Shown here: piece by piece, positions 9,840 through 44,879 of the stretch
Position numbering within the stretch: position 1 is the first letter of the stretch
Layout of the letters: every line of letters begins with the position of its first letter
NCBI RefSeq assembly: GCF_030818545.1
Contig: NZ_JAUTAH010000001.1
Coordinates: 2,051,001-2,115,000, forward strand
Direction: 5' to 3'
Length of the DNA: 64,000 nt
From: Brevundimonas sp. SORGH_AS_0993
GTDB taxonomy: Bacteria > Pseudomonadota > Alphaproteobacteria > Caulobacterales > Caulobacteraceae
The notes under the pieces: generated by a model
Database searches by the model: none
Told to the model about the DNA's origin: nothing
Seen by the model: only the letters and a program-made list of their open reading frames with translations
Position numbers and translations under genes: made by a program

Positions 9840-10388
9840 ATGATCTCAACAACAGGATGGAGCAGCCGGGCTGTGTTTGGAAAGCGACGCTTGGATGAGG
9901 TGGATATCGCCACCCAGATGTTGGACGAGCTTGTCGATCAAACTGAGCGCCTAGTGCGGTCAGGGATATTTCTCCCAGAGCGACGTGACGCAGCAAGCTT
10001 GACCTTACGATTGCTTACCGCTCCGTCTTGGGCTGCCCTAGTTCTTCACTATCGAACTTTTGACCCCGCTTACGATCCGAAGGTGGTTCTCCGAGAACTC
10101 AGAGCTTTGGTTTGTGTGGCGGTTCTCGGCGGACCCGGCAATTATTCGCAACCAGAATACGACGCCGCTTGGGCGATGTTGCACGAAGACATGACCTTGG
10201 TTTCAGGTCTCGTGCAGCGCAGAATGGACGGCGAAAACGTTCCATATTTCCCTTCCTTGGTAGCGACGCAATTCTGGGACCAGCGCCTCACCTTGGTTGG
10301 GCGAGACTTTGAGCCGCAGGAAGTAGTGTTAGCCAGCCAGGCGGTTGGCGCAGCTATGCTTGCAGTCCTCAAGCGAGCAAACGCCTAA
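9840..10388 (+). CDS. Uncharacterised protein, AT-rich insertion between bkd E2 and E3 genes
   Basis: I do not recognise this protein. From ATG 9840 it has 182 residues; GTG 9873 (171 residues, GGAG upstream) and ATG 9918 (156 residues, beginning MLDELVDQ) are alternatives. It is soluble-looking and mostly helical, with [31 protein letters not shown] and [10 protein letters not shown] segments. Base composition and codon choice are clearly less GC-biased than in the neighbours (TTA, TTG, CTT, TCA and AGA-type codons occur), which suggests horizontal acquisition. Its 5' end is back-to-back with lpdA (one base between start codons if ATG 9840 is used) and its TAA overlaps the E2 stop. Confidence 0.68.
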
Positions 10389-12061
10389 CCCATCCACAGC
10401 GTCGCCGGGTTTTCCAAGAGCCCCTTGATCCGCTGCACGAATACCGCAGCATCATGCCCGTCGACGATGCGGTGATCGAAGCTGGACGACAGGTTCATCA
10501 TCTTGCGCACGACCGTCTGGCCGTCCTTGACCACGACCCGTTCGGCGATCTTGTTGGGGCCGACGATGGCGACCTCGGGGTGGTTGATGATCGGGGTGTG
10601 GACCACCCCGCCCAGCGTGCCCAGGGAGGTGATGGTGATGGTCGAACCCGACAGTTCCTCGCGCTTGGCCGAACCGTCCTTGGCCGCGCCAGACACACGC
10701 GCGATCTCCAGCGCCGTATCCCAGGCGTCGCGCGCCTCGGCATGGCGGACCACCGGCACCATCAGGCCGTTCGGCGTCTGGGCGGCGATGCCCAGATGGA
10801 CCGGGGCGTGCTGGGTCAGGACGCCCGCCTCGTCGTCATAGGTGGCGTTGATCTGGGGCTGGTCGCGCAGGGCGACCACGATGGCGCGGGCGATGAAGGG
10901 CAGGACGTTCAGCTTGGGCTGGTCCTTTTGCTTCGTCGCGTTCAGGTGGGCGCGCAACTCCTCCAGCGCCGTCATGTCGATTTCCTCGACATAGGTGATG
11001 TGCGGGATGCGGCGCACGCTCTCGGCCATCTTCTCCGCGATCTTGCGGCGCAAGCCGATGATGCGGACCTCTGTGGTCCCCTCGGCGCGGGCGAAGGCCG
11101 ATCCGCCTGCCGCGGGGGCGGAGGCGGGGACCGATCCGCCGCGCGCGATGAAGCCGTCCAGGTCCTCGTGCGTGATCCGCCCGGCCGGGCCGGACCCCGG
11201 CACGAAGGTCAGGTCCACGCCCAGGTCGCGCGCCCGGTTGCGCACGGCGGGCGAGGCCAGCGGGCGTTCGCCCGGTGCGCGGCCGGTCAAGGCGGGGACG
11301 GGTTTGCCCCCCTCCGCCGCTGCGCGGGTACTCCCCCCGACGGGGGGAGACTTGGGTGCAGGCGCCGCTGTCGATCCTCCCCCATCGGGGGAGGGGGACC
11401 GCGAAGCGGTGGAGGGGGCCGAAGCGGGCCCGGGCGTCGAGACATTGCCCCGCCCCTCGACATCGAACGCGACCAGAGGACCGCCGACCGGCACCGACTT
11501 GCCCGCTTCGCCGTATAGGGCGACGACCGTGCCGGCGACAGGCGAGGTGATCTCCACCGTGGCCTTGTCGGTCATGATGTCGGCGATGATCTGGTCTTCC
11601 TCGACCGCGTCGCCGACCTTGACGTGCCAGCCGACCAGCTCGGCCTCTGCGGTGCCTTCGCCGACGTCCGGCAGTTTGAAGACATAGTTGCCGCCCGCCG
11701 TTTCCACTGTATGCGCAGGCGCGACCGGCGGCTTGGCTGCTGGCTTGGGCGCGGCTTCTGCGGCGGGCTTTACAGCAGGAGGGGACGCCGGTTCGGGCGC
11801 ATCGGCGGCATTGCCCGCACCCTCGACCTCGAACTCGACCAGAGGGCCGCGCACGGGGATCATCTGGCCGGGTTCGCCGTGGATGGCCGTAACCTTGCCG
11901 GATACCGGCGCGGTGATCTCCACCGTGGCCTTGTCGGTCATGACGTCGGCGACGATCTGGTCCTCGGCGACCATGTCGCCGACCTTGACGTGCCAGGCGA
12001 CCAGTTCGGCCTCGGCGGTGCCTTCGCCCACGTCGGGCAGTTTGAAGACGAAACGACCCAT
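10385..12061 (-). CDS. bkdB: Branched-chain 2-oxoacid dehydrogenase E2, lipoyl acyltransferase with two lipoyl domains
   Basis: A 558-residue dihydrolipoamide acyltransferase core of the branched-chain 2-oxoacid dehydrogenase complex. Two lipoyl domains (about 1-80 and 124-202) each have MTDKATVEIT with the lipoylated lysine at 44 and 166. Then come an Ala/Pro linker, a subunit-binding domain (about 265-305, ASPAVRNRARDLG...GPAGRITHEDL) and the catalytic domain ending in FDHRIVDGHD (His530, Asp534). Oddly, residues about 214-252 of the linker are encoded by two half-units of a palindromic repeat also found between genes at 30783 and 44707. The start lies one base after the E1beta stop. Substrate class is inferred from the BkdA1-like E1alpha. 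Confidence 0.94.
   Translation of the reverse strand: MGRFVFKLPDVGEGTAEAELVAWHVKVGDMVAEDQIVADVMTDKATVEITAPVSGKVTAIHGEPGQMIPVRGPLVEFEVEGAGNAADAPEPASPPAVKPAAEAAPKPAAKPPVAPAHTVETAGGNYVFKLPDVGEGTAEAELVGWHVKVGDAVEEDQIIADIMTDKATVEITSPVAGTVVALYGEAGKSVPVGGPLVAFDVEGRGNVSTPGPASAPSTASRSPSPDGGGSTAAPAPKSPPVGGSTRAAAEGGKPVPALTGRAPGERPLASPAVRNRARDLGVDLTFVPGSGPAGRITHEDLDGFIARGGSVPASAPAAGGSAFARAEGTTEVRIIGLRRKIAEKMAESVRRIPHITYVEEIDMTALEELRAHLNATKQKDQPKLNVLPFIARAIVVALRDQPQINATYDDEAGVLTQHAPVHLGIAAQTPNGLMVPVVRHAEARDAWDTALEIARVSGAAKDGSAKREELSGSTITITSLGTLGGVVHTPIINHPEVAIVGPNKIAERVVVKDGQTVVRKMMNLSSSFDHRIVDGHDAAVFVQRIKGLLENPATLWMG
11306..11421. repeat. Dispersed palindromic repeat, translated copy inside the E2 gene
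   Basis: Two half-units in opposite orientation. The unit at about 11373-11421 begins GATCCTCCCCC, folds on GGGGGAG and continues into GGGACCGCGAAGCGGTGGA followed by a G run. The unit at about 11306-11350 is the inverted counterpart with CTCCCCCC...GGGGGGAG. The same blocks make up the intergenic repeats at 30783 and 44707, but there the halves face the other way round. The copy is in frame and adds about 39 Pro/Ala/Gly/Ser-rich residues to the E2 linker. Confidence 0.8.
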
Positions 12062-28528: not shown

Positions 28529-30760
28529 TCAGTCCATCAGCTGTTGCGACAGATAGACATAATGGCGGGCCCAGCGACGGGCGTTGGCCACCGGATCGGC
28601 GTCGTTGGAGTGACCGCCCGCCGTGTCCTCGTAATAGAGGTGGTCATAGCCCAGGTCGCCCAGACGGGCGGCGAACTTGCGGGCATGGCCGGGGTGGACG
28701 CGGTCGTCGCGGGTATTGGTGGTCAGATAGACGCGCGGATAGGGCTGGCCCGGACGGAGCTGCTGATAGGCGGAATATTTCGCGATCCACTCGGCTTCTT
28801 CCGGGATGCGCGGGTCGCCGTATTCGCCGATCCACGAGGCGCCGGCCGGCAACTCGTGATAGCGCAGCATGTCCACCAGCGGGCTTTCGATCACCGCCGC
28901 GTTGAACAGTTCCGGATGCTGGGTGATCGACACCGAGGTCAGAACCCCGCCGTTCGAGCGGCCGTAGATGCCGAGGCGACGCGGGCTGGTGATCCCGCGC
29001 TGTTCAAGGTCGCGCGCCACGGCGGCGAAGTCGTCGAAGGCTTTCTGGCGGTTTCCGTCCAGCGCCGCCTGGTGCCAGTCGGGACCAAACTCGCCGCCGC
29101 CCCGGATATTGGCCTGCACGAAGACGCCGCCCCGCTCCAGCCACAGCTTGCCCATCTCGGGCTTGTAGGCCGGGTTCAGGCTGACCTGAAAACCGCCATA
29201 GCCCAGCATGATGGTCGGGTTCGATCCGTCCAGCTTCATGTCGCGCGGGCGGGTGATGAAGTAGGGAATCTTCGTCCCGTCGGCCGAGGTCGCCTCATAT
29301 TGTTCGGTCACGTCGCGCGAAGCGTCGAACTTGGCCGGGGCGGATTTCAGCGGCGTCAAGGTCGCGGCGTTCGCATCGGCCAGGCTGAGGGTTGGCGGCA
29401 CGAGGAAGCCTTGGGTCGAGACGAAGACCTCGCCCCGCGACTTGGAGAAATCGCCCAAACCGACGGCGAGGTTGGCCGGCACTTCGATGGACTGCACGGT
29501 CCAAGGGAACTCGCCCCTTGGGGCGAAGATCGAGAGTCGGCCGCTGACGTTGTCGTTGATGGCGACGACGATCCGATCGGAAAGCACCCGGACGTCCGCA
29601 ATGGATTGGCGGGGTGTCGGAACGAATATCTGCGTATCTTGATAACTCGGCCCTGAACGCGAACCGTCGGGGCGGTCATGTAAACTGTCTAGCGCCATAG
29701 CCATCAGCGCACCGGCGGGACCGCCGCCATACCCTAGAAGTTGCTTGTCGAAGACTTCCTCGGGTGTGAACACCAGCATGCCGTCGAGCACGCCGTAGAT
29801 GCTCACCCTCTCGGGAATCCTTAGTTTGTAGGTTCGGCCATCCAGAAGCCGCCACGTCTCCGACCGGAAGGTGTCCAGCGGGCGGGTGATGATAACGGCC
29901 GTGACCTTGCCGGCCCTGTCACGATAGACGGCCGGGCTGACGCCATAGCCGCCGTCCGACTGCTCGCCGCGATAAACCTCGGTCGCCTGGGCCAGGGTCT
30001 GGCCGCGCTTCAGCGCTTTGACGATGAAGGGATAGCCGGACTCGGTCATCGTCGGCTTGCCGTTCTCTGTGCCGAAGTCCGTGGCGACCAGAAGGGTGTC
30101 GCGGTCCAGCCATTCGATGCGGTGCTTGCCCTCGGGCAGGTTGAAGCCCCCGTCCACGAACCGTTTGGTCGGGATGTCGAACTCGCGAACCACCACCGCG
30201 TCCTTGCCGCCGTCGGACAGCATGATCAGGCAGCGCGCATCGTCGGGCGCCAGGCAGTCGGCGCCCTTGAACACCCAGTCCTTGCCTTCGGCCTTGGACA
30301 GGGCGTCGAGGTCCAGCAGCGTCTCCCACTGCGGCGCCGCGGCGCGATAGCTGTCCAGCGTCGTGCGACGCCAGACGCCCTTGGGATTGGTCGCGTCCTG
30401 CCAGAAGTTGCCGATCCCGTCGCCCAGGAAGGACGGGCTGGGGATGCGGTCCGTCGCGGTCAGGATCGCCTGGGCCTCGGCGCGGAAGGTCTCGTAGCGC
30501 GGATCGCCGGTCAGGACGGCGAGGGATTTCCTGTTCTCCTCGGCGACGAAGGCCATGGCCGCGGCCCCGTCCACCTGCTCCAGCGCCAGATGATCGTCCG
30601 CCGCCGCGACGCCGGCGGGCGTCAGGTCGCGAGGGAAGTGAGGCGGAGGGCTGTCGTTGGTCGTCATGACGATTTCGTCAACACCTCTGGCGACCGGCGT
30701 ACTCGCGCAGGCGGCCAGCAGAAGGGCCGGAATGGCGGCGGACAGGATCAGGTGACGCAT
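28529..30760 (-). CDS. Prolyl oligopeptidase family lipoprotein (paralogue 2)
   Basis: A 743-residue S9A-type serine peptidase. The signal peptide ends in the lipobox LLAAC (Cys18), so it is probably anchored in the envelope. An N-terminal seven-bladed propeller (GVWRRTTLDSY, SDGGKDAVVVREFD) caps the C-terminal alpha/beta-hydrolase with the catalytic Ser in GIYGRSNGG, Asp in NTRDDRVHPGH and His in AGGHSND. It is a clear paralogue of the gene directly upstream; the two share WRRTTLDSYR and many other blocks. Part of the propeller (about 29600-30050) is less GC-rich than the rest. Confidence 0.92.
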   Translation of the reverse strand: MRHLILSAAIPALLLAACASTPVARGVDEIVMTTNDSPPPHFPRDLTPAGVAAADDHLALEQVDGAAAMAFVAEENRKSLAVLTGDPRYETFRAEAQAILTATDRIPSPSFLGDGIGNFWQDATNPKGVWRRTTLDSYRAAAPQWETLLDLDALSKAEGKDWVFKGADCLAPDDARCLIMLSDGGKDAVVVREFDIPTKRFVDGGFNLPEGKHRIEWLDRDTLLVATDFGTENGKPTMTESGYPFIVKALKRGQTLAQATEVYRGEQSDGGYGVSPAVYRDRAGKVTAVIITRPLDTFRSETWRLLDGRTYKLRIPERVSIYGVLDGMLVFTPEEVFDKQLLGYGGGPAGALMAMALDSLHDRPDGSRSGPSYQDTQIFVPTPRQSIADVRVLSDRIVVAINDNVSGRLSIFAPRGEFPWTVQSIEVPANLAVGLGDFSKSRGEVFVSTQGFLVPPTLSLADANAATLTPLKSAPAKFDASRDVTEQYEATSADGTKIPYFITRPRDMKLDGSNPTIMLGYGGFQVSLNPAYKPEMGKLWLERGGVFVQANIRGGGEFGPDWHQAALDGNRQKAFDDFAAVARDLEQRGITSPRRLGIYGRSNGGVLTSVSITQHPELFNAAVIESPLVDMLRYHELPAGASWIGEYGDPRIPEEAEWIAKYSAYQQLRPGQPYPRVYLTTNTRDDRVHPGHARKFAARLGDLGYDHLYYEDTAGGHSNDADPVANARRWARHYVYLSQQLMD

Positions 30761-30782
30761 GGCTTAAACACTCCGCAAATCT

Positions 30783-30922
30783 GATCCTCCCCCGCATCGC
30801 GGGGGGAGGGGAACCGCCGTCAGGCGGTGGAGGGGGCGGAACCAGACAGGGCGCCAGGGGTCGCCCCCTCCGCCACTTCGTGGTCCCCCTCCCCCGTTCG
30901 CAAGCGCTCACGGGGGAGGATC
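30783..30922. repeat. Dispersed palindromic repeat, intergenic copy between the two oligopeptidases
   Basis: A 140-base imperfect inverted repeat bounded by GATCCTCCCCC on the left and GGGGGAGGATC on the right. Each half folds into a C-run/G-run hairpin followed by a GGAACCGCC...GGCGGTGGA hairpin and a G-rich run. It fills nearly the whole gap between the genes. Related to 11306-11421 and 44707-44879. Confidence 0.85.
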
Positions 30923-30926
30923 GGAC

Positions 30927-33128
30927 TTACTGCTGCGCCGGCGTGTCCATCAGGCGACGCGACAGATAGGTGTATTCCAGCGCCAGGCGGCGGGCCGTCT
31001 CCTGCAGATTGGCGCCGGCCGCGTGGCCGCCATCGGTGTTCTCGTAGAACAGCACCGGATAGCCCAGTTCCTCCAGACGCGCCGCCGCCTTGCGTGCATG
31101 GCCCGGATGGACGCGGTCGTCCTTAGTCGAGGTGTGGATGAAGACTTCCGGATAGGGCTGGCCCGCGCGCAGGTTCTGATAGGGCGAATACTGCTCGATC
31201 CAGGCGCGCTGTTCGGGGATGTCCGGGTTGCCGTATTCGCCGATCCATGAGGCGCCCGCCAACAGCTTGTGGAAGCGCAGCATGTCGAACAGGGGCACCT
31301 GGATGACGGCGGCGTTGATCAGGTCCGGACGCTGGGTCAGCATCGCTCCCATGAACAGCCCGCCCTGCGAGCCGCCCATGATGCCGAGTTTCGGCTGACT
31401 GGTGATGTCGCGGGCGATCAGGTCCAGCGCCACCGCCTGAAAGTCCTCGTGCGCGCGCTGGCGGTTCTGTTGCAGGGCCGCCTCGTGCCAGCGCGGGCCG
31501 AACTCGCCCCCGCCGCGCGTATTGGCGATCACATACACGCCGCCTCGCTCCAGCCACAGCTTGCCGACCGTCGCCGAATAACCGGGCAGCAGCGAGCTTT
31601 CGAACCCGCCATAGCCATAGAGGACCGTAGGGTTCGACCCGTCCAGCGGCATGTCCGCCTTATGCACCACGAAATAGGGGATCATCGTTCCGTCGGCCGA
31701 ACGCGCCTGGAACTGATCGACCTTCATGCCGGTCGCGTCGAACTTGGCGGGCATGGACTTGACCTGATCGACCACGCCGGTCGCGGCATCGGCCAGCCAC
31801 AGGCTGGACGGATTCAGATAGCCGGTGACGCTGACAAAGACCTTGTCGTCCTTCTCCGAGGCCGAACCGACGCCGACCGAGACGTTCTGCGGCAAGTCCA
31901 GGGTCGTATAGGCCCACGCGCCCTCGCCCGGCGTGTAGACGCGGACCGAACCGCGCACATTGTCGTAAAGGGCCACCACCAGACGATTGCGGGTGACGTT
32001 CATACCCTCGATGGCCTGACGCTCGGTCGGGCGCAGAACCAGCTGGGCCAGGGTCCTGGCGTCGGCCAGCCACGCCTCCAGCGGCCAGGCGATCAGGTCG
32101 CCGGTCTGGAAGGTCTGGCCCGACGGCGCGGTCCAGTCCTGCTTCAGCGTGACCAGCAGCCGCCCGTCCACCAGGCCGGCGATGTCGGACTTGGCCGGCA
32201 GCGGCAGTTGGATCAGGGCGCCGTCGTCGGTCACGCGCCAGGTCTCGGACGAATAGAAGTCGACGGCCCGGTTGATCAGCACCGCCTTCACCGCCCCGTC
32301 GGCGTCGCGCAGCGTATAGCCGGACACGGACACGTCGGTCGGCTGGCCGGTGAACAGGGTCTCGGCCTGCTCCAGGGTCTGGCCGCGCTTCATCCGCTTG
32401 ACCACCATCGGATAGCCCGAGTCGGTCAGGGTGCCGGGGCCGAAGTCGCGCGAGACCAGCAGCGTATCCTTGTCGATCCAGGACGCGCCGCCCTTGGATT
32501 CGGGCAGGACGACGCCGCCCTCGACGAACTTGCGCTCGACGCTGTCGAACTCGCGCAGGGTGACGGCGTCCTTGCCGCCGTTCGACAGGCTGATCAGGCA
32601 GTAGCGTTCTTCGGGCGGCAGGCAGGTCGAACCCTTGTAAACCCAGTTGGCGTCCTCGGCCGCCGCCAGGGCGTCGACATCCAGAATGGTCTCCCATTGC
32701 GGCGTCGCGGTGCGATAGCTGTCCAGGGTTGTCCGCCGCCAGACGCCGCGCACATGCTGGGCGTCCTGCCAGAAGTTGTCGATATGGCCGTCATGGGTGA
32801 AGCCGGGCGACGGGATGCGGTCGCGCGACTGGACGATGTCCAGCGCCTCCTGATGCAGGGTCGCATAGCGCGGGTCGCCCTGAAGGATGCTAAGGGTGCG
32901 GGCGTTCTGGGCGTGGACCCATTCCATCGCCCGCGCGCCGTCGACCTCTTCCAGCCACAGGTAGGGATCGGTCTCGGGGCTGGCGGCGAATCCGCCGGCC
33001 TGCGCGACAGTGGCGGCGGCTGGGACGGCGCCCGAAGAAGCAGCGGAAGTCGTCTGGGCCATGGCGCTCGGTGTCAGGCTGGTGGAGGCGAGAAGGGCCG
33101 CAAGGGCGGCGACGGACGTGCGGATCAT
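30927..33128 (-). CDS. Prolyl oligopeptidase family serine peptidase (paralogue 1)
   Basis: A 733-residue S9A peptidase with a Sec signal peptide (start MIRTSVAALAALL, cleavage region AMAQ). After a Ser/Ala linker, the propeller begins DPYLWLEEVDGARAM, matching bacterial prolyl oligopeptidases. Catalytic residues are Ser in GIMGGSQGG, Asp in STKDDRVHPGH and His in TDGGHAAGAN. I chose ATG 33128 because it starts the signal peptide; the upstream open frame has no such feature. Likely periplasmic, cutting proline-containing peptides. The repeat at 30783 separates it from its paralogue. Confidence 0.93.
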   Translation of the reverse strand: MIRTSVAALAALLASTSLTPSAMAQTTSAASSGAVPAAATVAQAGGFAASPETDPYLWLEEVDGARAMEWVHAQNARTLSILQGDPRYATLHQEALDIVQSRDRIPSPGFTHDGHIDNFWQDAQHVRGVWRRTTLDSYRTATPQWETILDVDALAAAEDANWVYKGSTCLPPEERYCLISLSNGGKDAVTLREFDSVERKFVEGGVVLPESKGGASWIDKDTLLVSRDFGPGTLTDSGYPMVVKRMKRGQTLEQAETLFTGQPTDVSVSGYTLRDADGAVKAVLINRAVDFYSSETWRVTDDGALIQLPLPAKSDIAGLVDGRLLVTLKQDWTAPSGQTFQTGDLIAWPLEAWLADARTLAQLVLRPTERQAIEGMNVTRNRLVVALYDNVRGSVRVYTPGEGAWAYTTLDLPQNVSVGVGSASEKDDKVFVSVTGYLNPSSLWLADAATGVVDQVKSMPAKFDATGMKVDQFQARSADGTMIPYFVVHKADMPLDGSNPTVLYGYGGFESSLLPGYSATVGKLWLERGGVYVIANTRGGGEFGPRWHEAALQQNRQRAHEDFQAVALDLIARDITSQPKLGIMGGSQGGLFMGAMLTQRPDLINAAVIQVPLFDMLRFHKLLAGASWIGEYGNPDIPEQRAWIEQYSPYQNLRAGQPYPEVFIHTSTKDDRVHPGHARKAAARLEELGYPVLFYENTDGGHAAGANLQETARRLALEYTYLSRRLMDTPAQQ

Positions 33129-33225
33129 TAAGGCCCCCGGTCGGATGAAGTCGGCGCACCTTAACGACGCGGCCCCGCACGGCAAGCGAGGCGCCGGCCA
33201 CCTTACGGCTTTGTCATGATCGGCC

Positions 33226-34023
33226 CTACAGACCTTCATCCGGAATGCACAGCAGATTGCCGCAGGCCTTGCAGTGGACGGCGTCCGGATCGTGCTTGTG
33301 CAGCCCGCAGCGATCACACGGAAAGCTAATCTTGGACGGCCGGATCAGGGCCTGGGCCAGCCGCAGGAACAGGGTGATGCCCGTCAGCATGATGGCGATG
33401 GACAACAGCTTGCCCCAGGCGCCGGGCAGGGTCACGTCGCCGAACCCCGTCGTGGTCAGGGTCGCCACGGTGAAATACAGCGCATCCACATAGCCGCCGA
33501 CGCCCGGCGCGCCCCGGAACGTCGCATAGACGAAGCCCGTCGCCACGAAGACGAAGGTCACAAGGTTGGCCAGGGCGCGCACGACCCCCTCGACCCGCGT
33601 GTCGTCGAACTTCCGGCCTACCGTCCGCCAGAAGAAGTCCGAGTTCAGCAGGGTCCAAAGCCTGAGCATCCGCAGGAAGCCCAGGTTGAACAGCCAGGCT
33701 GGGAACAGCAGGGTCGCCAGGACGAACAGATCGACCCAGACGATAGGCCGCTTCAGCCAGTCCCGGATGTCGGCATAGGCATAGGCCCGCGCCGCCAGAT
33801 CGACCGCCAGGACCACCGCGATCAGATAGTCGATGACATAGAAGGCCCAGCCCATGTTGCGCAGGATCGGCGCGGCCAGGAAGAAGGCGATGATGACCAG
33901 GTCCACCCCGATCACGGCCAGGCGGAACCGCACCGCCGGCGGTTGGGAGCCGTGATAGAGATAACGCACCCGCGCGCGCAGACGCAGGCCGTCGTCGCCT
34001 GTGGCCCTGGGCGGATCGTCCAT
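33226..34023 (-). CDS. Voltage-gated-like potassium channel with C-terminal zinc ribbon
   Basis: A 265-residue membrane protein with a six-helix channel layout: segments LAVIGVDLVIIAFFLAAPIL, VIDYLIAVVLAVDLAARAYAY, an S4-like LGFLRMLRLWTLL, a pore helix and selectivity filter TLTTTGFGDV, and a final inner helix. The GFG filter indicates K+ selectivity. The C terminus is unusual: CDRCGLHKHDPDAVHCKACG forms two CxxC pairs typical of a zinc ribbon. ATG 34023 has AAGGA just upstream; a longer frame is unsupported. It diverges from dapF. Confidence 0.88.
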   Translation of the reverse strand: MDDPPRATGDDGLRLRARVRYLYHGSQPPAVRFRLAVIGVDLVIIAFFLAAPILRNMGWAFYVIDYLIAVVLAVDLAARAYAYADIRDWLKRPIVWVDLFVLATLLFPAWLFNLGFLRMLRLWTLLNSDFFWRTVGRKFDDTRVEGVVRALANLVTFVFVATGFVYATFRGAPGVGGYVDALYFTVATLTTTGFGDVTLPGAWGKLLSIAIMLTGITLFLRLAQALIRPSKISFPCDRCGLHKHDPDAVHCKACGNLLCIPDEGL

Positions 34024-44706: not shown

Positions 44707-44879
44707 GATCCTCCCCCGCAACAACGCGGGGGAGGGGGACCGCGAAGCGGTGGAAGGGGCGGAACCGAGTTCGGCTCTTCGCCGCTTCGGCTCGGTTCAG
44801 GCTGGCCGCCGTCGATGCGGCGTCCGCCCCCTCCACCACGCTGCGCGCGGTCCCCCTCCCCCGCGTTGCGGGGGAGGAT
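44707..44879. repeat. Dispersed palindromic repeat, intergenic copy between transaldolase and priA
   Basis: A 173-base inverted repeat bounded by GATCCTCCCCC and GGGGGAGGAT. The left half reads CGCGGGGGAGGGGGACCGC then GAAGCGGT, and the right half mirrors it (GCGGTCCCCCTCCCCC). It occupies nearly the whole divergent gap, and its right end contributes GGGGAGGA, four to nine bases before the priA ATG. Confidence 0.86.

Follow-up and report, generated by a model that had tools for sequence, protein, structure and literature searches.

The question raised by this locus is how a palindromic DNA repeat, lying between genes elsewhere in the same window (the whole stretch of 64,000 nucleotides analysed), came to be read in frame as part of a conserved enzyme. 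The gene is bkdB. Its product contains, by Pfam, two Biotin_lipoyl domains, an E3_binding domain (residues 267-301) and a 2-oxoacid_dh domain (residues 328-556), and the domains that identify an E2 (lipoyl, E3-binding and acyltransferase) were all found. The nearest other protein (P0002) bears in its source the name 2-oxoisovalerate dehydrogenase E2, and the adjoining ORFs, as judged by eye, are E1 and E3. The features of the gene and the two further copies in the window are as follows.

10385-12061, minus strand: bkdB, E2 (dihydrolipoyl acyltransferase) of the branched-chain 2-oxoacid dehydrogenase complex, an ORF of 558 aa.
11306-11421, minus strand: repeat-derived segment of linker 2, residues about 214-252, delimited by sequence, fold and stop count.
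11375-11421, minus strand: half-unit 1 in gene order, CCCCCTCCACC-loop-GGTCCCCCTCCCCC-loop-GGGGGAGGA, identified by profile and regular expression.
11350-11374, minus strand: spacer between the half-units, encoding about TAAPAPK, identified by sequence.
11306-11352, minus strand: half-unit 2, a variant inverse of half-unit 1, encoding SPPVGGSTRAAAEGG, identified by sequence.
30783-30922, no strand assigned: intergenic copy with two half-units, between two prolyl-oligopeptidase genes.
44707-44879, no strand assigned: intergenic copy with two half-units, between the transaldolase and priA genes.

The repeat encodes about 39 residues of the linker that follows lipoyl domain 2 and precedes the E3-binding domain, and both half-units are in frame with the ORF. 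On this point the ORF and the Pfam domains confirm the original prediction, which had placed two in-frame palindrome half-units of about that extent between the second lipoyl domain and the subunit-binding domain. Half-unit 1 is recognized by a profile of copies from outside E2 (nhmmer E value 6e-10), and the regular-expression match to it spans 11375-11419. Half-unit 2 alone gave no match to the profile of non-E2 half-units; when the segment is folded in silico, half-unit 1 is the pairing partner of its outer arm. The spacer resembles a native Ala/Pro/Lys linker and may be a remnant of it. The DNA of 11306-11421 folds with a z of -4.56 against dinucleotide shuffles and contains zero stops across all six frames. 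When codon order was shuffled instead, the whole linker of the window gene reached only z -2.3, and the case for a repeat is therefore carried by the matches elsewhere and not by the fold. An AlphaFold2 model of this E2, made with 36 close homologues, was unusable (mean pLDDT 36, pTM 0.20).

The 32-nt core of the repeat was identified three times in the window, exact at 11387-11418, with three mismatches at 30864-30895 and with one mismatch at 44728-44759; in 100 shuffles the mean was 0.00. The flanking genes and the core matches also bear out the claim that the blocks at 30783 and 44707 are intergenic. A minus-strand ORF of 1046 aa crosses the copy at 44707-44879; it has a Pfam match at the transaldolase end only and overlaps priA. 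In bkdB the order of the half-units is inverted relative to both intergenic copies, a feature unmentioned in the original prediction. A search of the window against Rfam at gathering scores gave 0 matches. As a separate observation, the region 28529-33317 contains tandem prolyl-oligopeptidase paralogues with a repeat copy between them.

Beyond the window, the exact core pattern occurs three times in the own genome (one contig, 2.99 Mb). Of 61 genomes from the genus, this one among them, 45 contain it, with up to 30 copies each; the reversed pattern, used as control over the same 61 genomes, gave 0. Most named relatives of bkdB belong to Brevundimonas. A 25-nt match at G000:C1:1724674 (L010) of the own genome, inside an ORF judged by eye to be TonB-receptor-like, looks like chance and was set aside.

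In 60 fetched stretches a slightly looser core was used to describe how the element is arranged: 26 pairs have the usual order, with CCTCCCC at their outer ends, 38 units stand alone, and one pair, an E2 linker (L174), is inverted. These stretches were picked by the exact pattern, which decayed copies escape, and cover all listed sites of genomes G001, G004 and G029, four of five in G057, nine of ten in G008 and three of ten in G019. Stops are few, no frame having one in more than 7 of 51 half-units. Most of the half-units lie outside genes. Those flanked on each side by convincing coding sequence or domains are L174 and L187 (E2), L176, L177 and L213, to which L183 was added through its orthologues.

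For the E2 gene itself, the comparison covers 80 named loci, which ranked best among 279. The profile used on them comprises 27 half-units from outside E2, aligned by hand into an HMM (MAFFT misaligned the 3' arm); by tblastn, the only E2 genes among the loci that served as its source were L097 and the own copies. This profile matches 27 of 81 E2 genes, and all 34 of its 34 matches fall inside linker 1 or linker 2, which together make up 7% of the 365 kb scanned. No match was found in the remaining E2 ORF or in the flanks covered. Many of the linkers are plain and Ala/Pro-rich, others are clearly repeat-like and of several types, for which the labels A, B and D, plus F and G in linker 1, are our own. 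With a profile match or a codon-shuffle fold of z <= -3 as the criterion, repeat-derived sequence was identified in linker 1 of 23 of 73 loci (8 of 81 being left out since one lipoyl domain was seen or the locus was cut) and in linker 2 of 27 of 80 (L075 being left out of the fold count), 40 loci altogether; the linker of the window gene qualifies through its profile match, its own fold staying at the value given above, and some others, among them those of L014, L016 and L086, are repeat-like by eye yet below the criterion. The two Caulobacter rows among the best 80 loci, L082 and L093, both have plain linkers. At L016, L037 and L085 the tblastn matches to E2 exceed the usual gene span by about 600-800 nt.

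Over a quick tree of the flanking domains (79 rows), presence and absence of the repeat require at least 20 changes in linker 2 and at least 17 in linker 1, counts that are rough given that 26 of the 76 inner branches have support under 80. With hand labels and the starred branches alone, at least 7 changes remain for type A, at least 4 for type B and at least 4 for type D; an earlier hand classification, with 21 changes for the three types together, was replaced by the profile and fold criterion. The nearest row by path, L077, is 96% identical over 370 columns and carries another linker type. In Brevundimonas poindexterae (L076), linker 1 is of type A and linker 2 of type D. The repeat of bkdB is also present in the closest proteins, P0002-P0009, so its gain predates the window's strain; no recent gain at bkdB was seen.

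Repeat linkers are only moderately longer than plain ones (14 ambiguous linkers being left out), with a median of 62 versus 51 residues in linker 2 and 49 versus 33 in linker 1, which points either to a limit on length or to a loss of native linker. No clean empty site was found for bkdB. The original prediction had expected insertion to be visible in relatives lacking exactly this segment between intact flanks; near-identical flanks without the repeat do exist (L077), but linker length is nearly kept. On the medians for linker 2, the approximately 39 repeat residues of bkdB have largely replaced its native linker.

In-frame copies were also identified in other genes. The copy lies between the two Pfam domains of an Asn-synthase-like protein (L177), between both helicase domains of an Lhr-type helicase (L213), between the lipoyl and E3-binding domains of PDH E2 (L176) and upstream of the capsid domain of a phage-type capsid protein (L183), whose orthologues also keep the flanking residues. 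The codon-score test applied was rough, having been trained on E2 genes, and was negative upstream of L183 despite the residues kept in orthologues. In the own genome (L007:851-1564, G000:C1 about 2675 kb) the ORF of an NlpC/P60 protein ends inside a half-unit read in the same frame as that of bkdB (APSTPSWSPSPVNGGES). Copies in coding regions, whose count had been proposed as a check, are thus found in E2, PDH E2, the Lhr-type helicase, the Asn-synthase-like gene, the capsid gene and the end of the NlpC/P60 ORF. In PDH E2 the repeat was seen by eye in L176 (G057) only, out of 35 genomes (L127-L156, own included, L176, L289, L290, L293 and L294), so colonisation is no property of every E2. The sucB gene of the own genome (L124, G000:C1 about 2339-2342 kb, minus strand) has its lipoyl domains in one frame and its E3-binding and catalytic domains in another; this break, near the second lipoyl domain or the linker, is either real or an assembly error.

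The Lhr-type helicase, with its filled and unfilled sites, is the natural experiment that can be read most clearly. Among the 30 best matches, 28 were parsed, comprising 17 long linkers (41-68 aa) and 11 short ones (9-15 aa), a filled share biased upwards, as is that of the capsid, because the 30 best matches were taken for each; in one comparison the alignment extended across the insert in 18 of the 58 genomes that gave a match. The long linkers are palindromic in 17 of 17 cases, with fold z from -4.6 to -12.1, and are built of several repeat types in both arrangements, whereas 0 of 11 short linkers reached z <= -3. The own genome (L278) has the short form. What L275 retains is a 20-nt match to the 3' end of the L258 element, as a deletion would leave. 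A further palindromic type, encoding SPLxGEGG (often ...SDEG), was observed in the Lhr linkers of L262, L265, L267 and L270-L272, and by eye is unlike the bkdB repeat in sequence. For the capsid, the orthologues L221 and L222 are 97% identical and have different inserts, both palindromic by eye, which suggests exchange or conversion in place.

The linker types differ in how far they are dispersed. The pattern of type D, CTTCCCCC..GGGGGAAGGG..GGGG.TGGGGGT, gave 68 matches in 17 of 61 genomes, and 0 in the control. Four of its loci outside E2 were inspected: L252, L253 and L254 are complete, with both ends ordered as in the D linkers, and L251 has the left end of type D followed by other repeats. 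The 34-mer of the type B left half-unit was matched 7 times, in 6 of the 61 genomes, and tblastn assigned every match to E2; hence type B offers no evidence for genome-wide dispersal and was dropped as a dispersed family. It is present in both linkers of L038 and L048; type B may be confined to E2, perhaps copied between its two linkers. Type E, the Ser/Thr-rich linkers with the motif GAATTCGACGACGAATTC, was likewise rejected as a repeat-derived class, a single non-E2 locus (L153) being found. The palindrome GAATTCGACGACGAATTC was observed in the Ser/Thr-rich linker 2 of L021 and L077 and, outside E2, at L153:52, and is possibly a further repeat family; the linker of L021 meets the fold criterion on its own.

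Four other explanations were weighed against the spread of an element. A chance resemblance to a repeat, arising from Pro/Gly-rich linker sequence and a GC-rich genome, is hardly credible: plain linkers are likewise of low complexity and the fold of the window linker is weak against codon-order shuffling, but shuffles give an expectation of 0 copies, the DNA fold has z -4.56 against dinucleotide shuffles and half-unit 1 is recognized by a profile from outside E2. Very unlikely, too, is the reverse direction, in which the dispersed repeats derive from an E2 linker. The left half-unit of type B, found in E2 linkers only, would fit such an origin; against it, the Caulobacter linkers are plain, type D has too many matches (68 in 17 genomes) for two linkers in each genome to accommodate, and of its 4 intergenic matches inspected, 3 are complete elements. 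An exchange of linker alleles between species by homologous recombination of bkdB, with repeats that are no longer mobile, is possible but doubtful. It agrees with the scatter of linker types over the tree of flanking domains and with a type B 34-mer identical in several species and found in E2 only; however, members of these families are spread over many unrelated sites and genes, and Lhr loci are found both filled and unfilled, which an exchange of bkdB alleles cannot account for.

It is rather improbable that the hairpin of bkdB was selected at the DNA or RNA level, through ribosome slowing between domains or mRNA stability, with the peptide as a by-product. At shared A/P/G/S/T/V/L/R residues, codon identity was higher than in the catalytic domain for 13 of 16 disjoint pairs of repeat linkers, versus 7 of 37 pairs of plain ones (Fisher p 3e-5; a sign test on the 13 of 16 gives 0.021). 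This comparison covers pairs with at least 70% residue identity, after removal of the 14 ambiguous linkers. Also in favour, the capsid inserts of L221 and L222 vary between nearly identical proteins yet are both palindromic by eye. On the other side, 53 of 80 linker-2 and 50 of 73 linker-1 sequences are below the repeat criterion, an upper bound as some are repeat-like by eye, and young age, gene conversion or codon bias would yield equal codon conservation. The score of plain linkers is lowered because such low-complexity sequences align poorly. Since young age or conversion could cause it and plain linkers align ambiguously, the excess of codon identity is a lead only.

The preferred reading, with a probability of about 0.85, is that a dispersed, non-autonomous palindromic element of Brevundimonas entered the reading frame of bkdB and that several types keep turning over in such linkers. 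Spread together with linker tolerance, as originally proposed, is the best reading because of the presence of the core in 45 of 61 genomes, the different linker of L077, the in-frame copies elsewhere and the unfilled Lhr sites; these, together with several types per site, were observed directly. A clean insertion into an intact bkdB linker was not found. Elements with almost no stops would land, or be copied, at many sites, by transposition or ectopic recombination. RAYT is an unlikely motor in the genus, because the RAYT-type Y1 transposase (PF01797) was found in 1 of 61 genomes and not in the own one. With few stops and a peptide rich in Ser/Pro/Gly/Ala, as the element's would be, in-frame copies would be tolerated in flexible interdomain linkers; copies elsewhere inside genes would be purged, the survivors being in frame and between domains. 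Two half-units probably joined the bkdB frame in an ancestor of the window's strain. From then on the linkers would turn over, palindromic copies of several types appearing, diverging or converting, and being deleted, and therefore orthologous linkers in related species would hold different repeats or none. In E2 the repeat peptide, if produced, would be an ordinary flexible tether for the lipoyl domains, presumably neutral in function.

A broader view is advanced tentatively, as one that we doubt more than we believe: throughout the genus, the linkers of conserved enzymes could be an exchangeable layer, which unrelated palindromic families enter repeatedly at the same sites, which dispersed copies convert, and which hairpin selection at the DNA or RNA level partly holds, so that mobile DNA would set the sequence and length of the tether. 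Filled, unfilled and remnant sites are available within one cultivable genus, where the passage of non-coding spreading DNA into protein sequence and its later removal can be followed. The Lhr, E2 and capsid sites are natural replicates in which one can measure, in working enzymes, what a linker's length and composition and an mRNA hairpin cost. They are also a warning that in GC-rich bacteria a disordered linker may stem from a repeat instead of having been shaped by the protein.

Repeats as in-frame protein segments had been regarded as seldom described, which does not hold. According to reviews, the RPEs of Rickettsia are dispersed palindromes of about 100-150 bp located in frame in unrelated, often conserved genes, and an enzyme with an RPE insert retains activity. 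Protein-coding palindromic repeats have also been reported in Wolbachia. Intragenic REPs with GTAG or CGTC tags (BMC Genomics 2013) were described in ORFs of several species as singles, dimers and groups, with different REPs at about the same site in recB of two Xanthomonas species, and the same source gives a CGTC tag at one end of RPEs (PMC3733652). The CIR of Caulobacter (Chen and Shapiro 2003) comprises about 110 bp in two inverted-repeat arms joined by a linker; it is reported to lie between genes, to contain a GANTC site and to have stop codons in each of the six frames (PMC2229807, PMC10969869). Among the open-licence papers listed, no title concerned Brevundimonas repeats of this kind or repeats in E2 or Lhr linkers, and recurrent occupation of linkers by several families, with unfilled and remnant sites, was not found.

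The Brevundimonas element shares with RPEs its in-frame position in several unrelated protein genes, and differs from them in its host, a free-living GC-rich genus, and in the several types that alternate at the same linkers of orthologous genes. Like the intragenic REPs, its palindromes are located inside ORFs; neither CGTC nor GTAG was identified within 6 nt of the half-unit ends (0 of 51 for each). With the CIR it shares two inverted-repeat arms and a host among related bacteria; unlike the CIR it is also located inside genes and has few stops, and a GANTC (CcrM) site is absent from all 51 half-units and from the three copies of the window. With the tags and GANTC absent, the elements are placed by these tests outside the GTAG, CGTC and CIR families. 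Among the marks of a MITE, which are terminal inverted repeats, a target-site duplication and a parent insertion sequence, inverted arms are seen in the Brevundimonas element. The RPEs, the Wolbachia repeats and the intragenic REPs are the same kind of thing as this element; what is new is that, across a genus, several types have repeatedly occupied the same linkers, with unfilled and remnant sites alongside.
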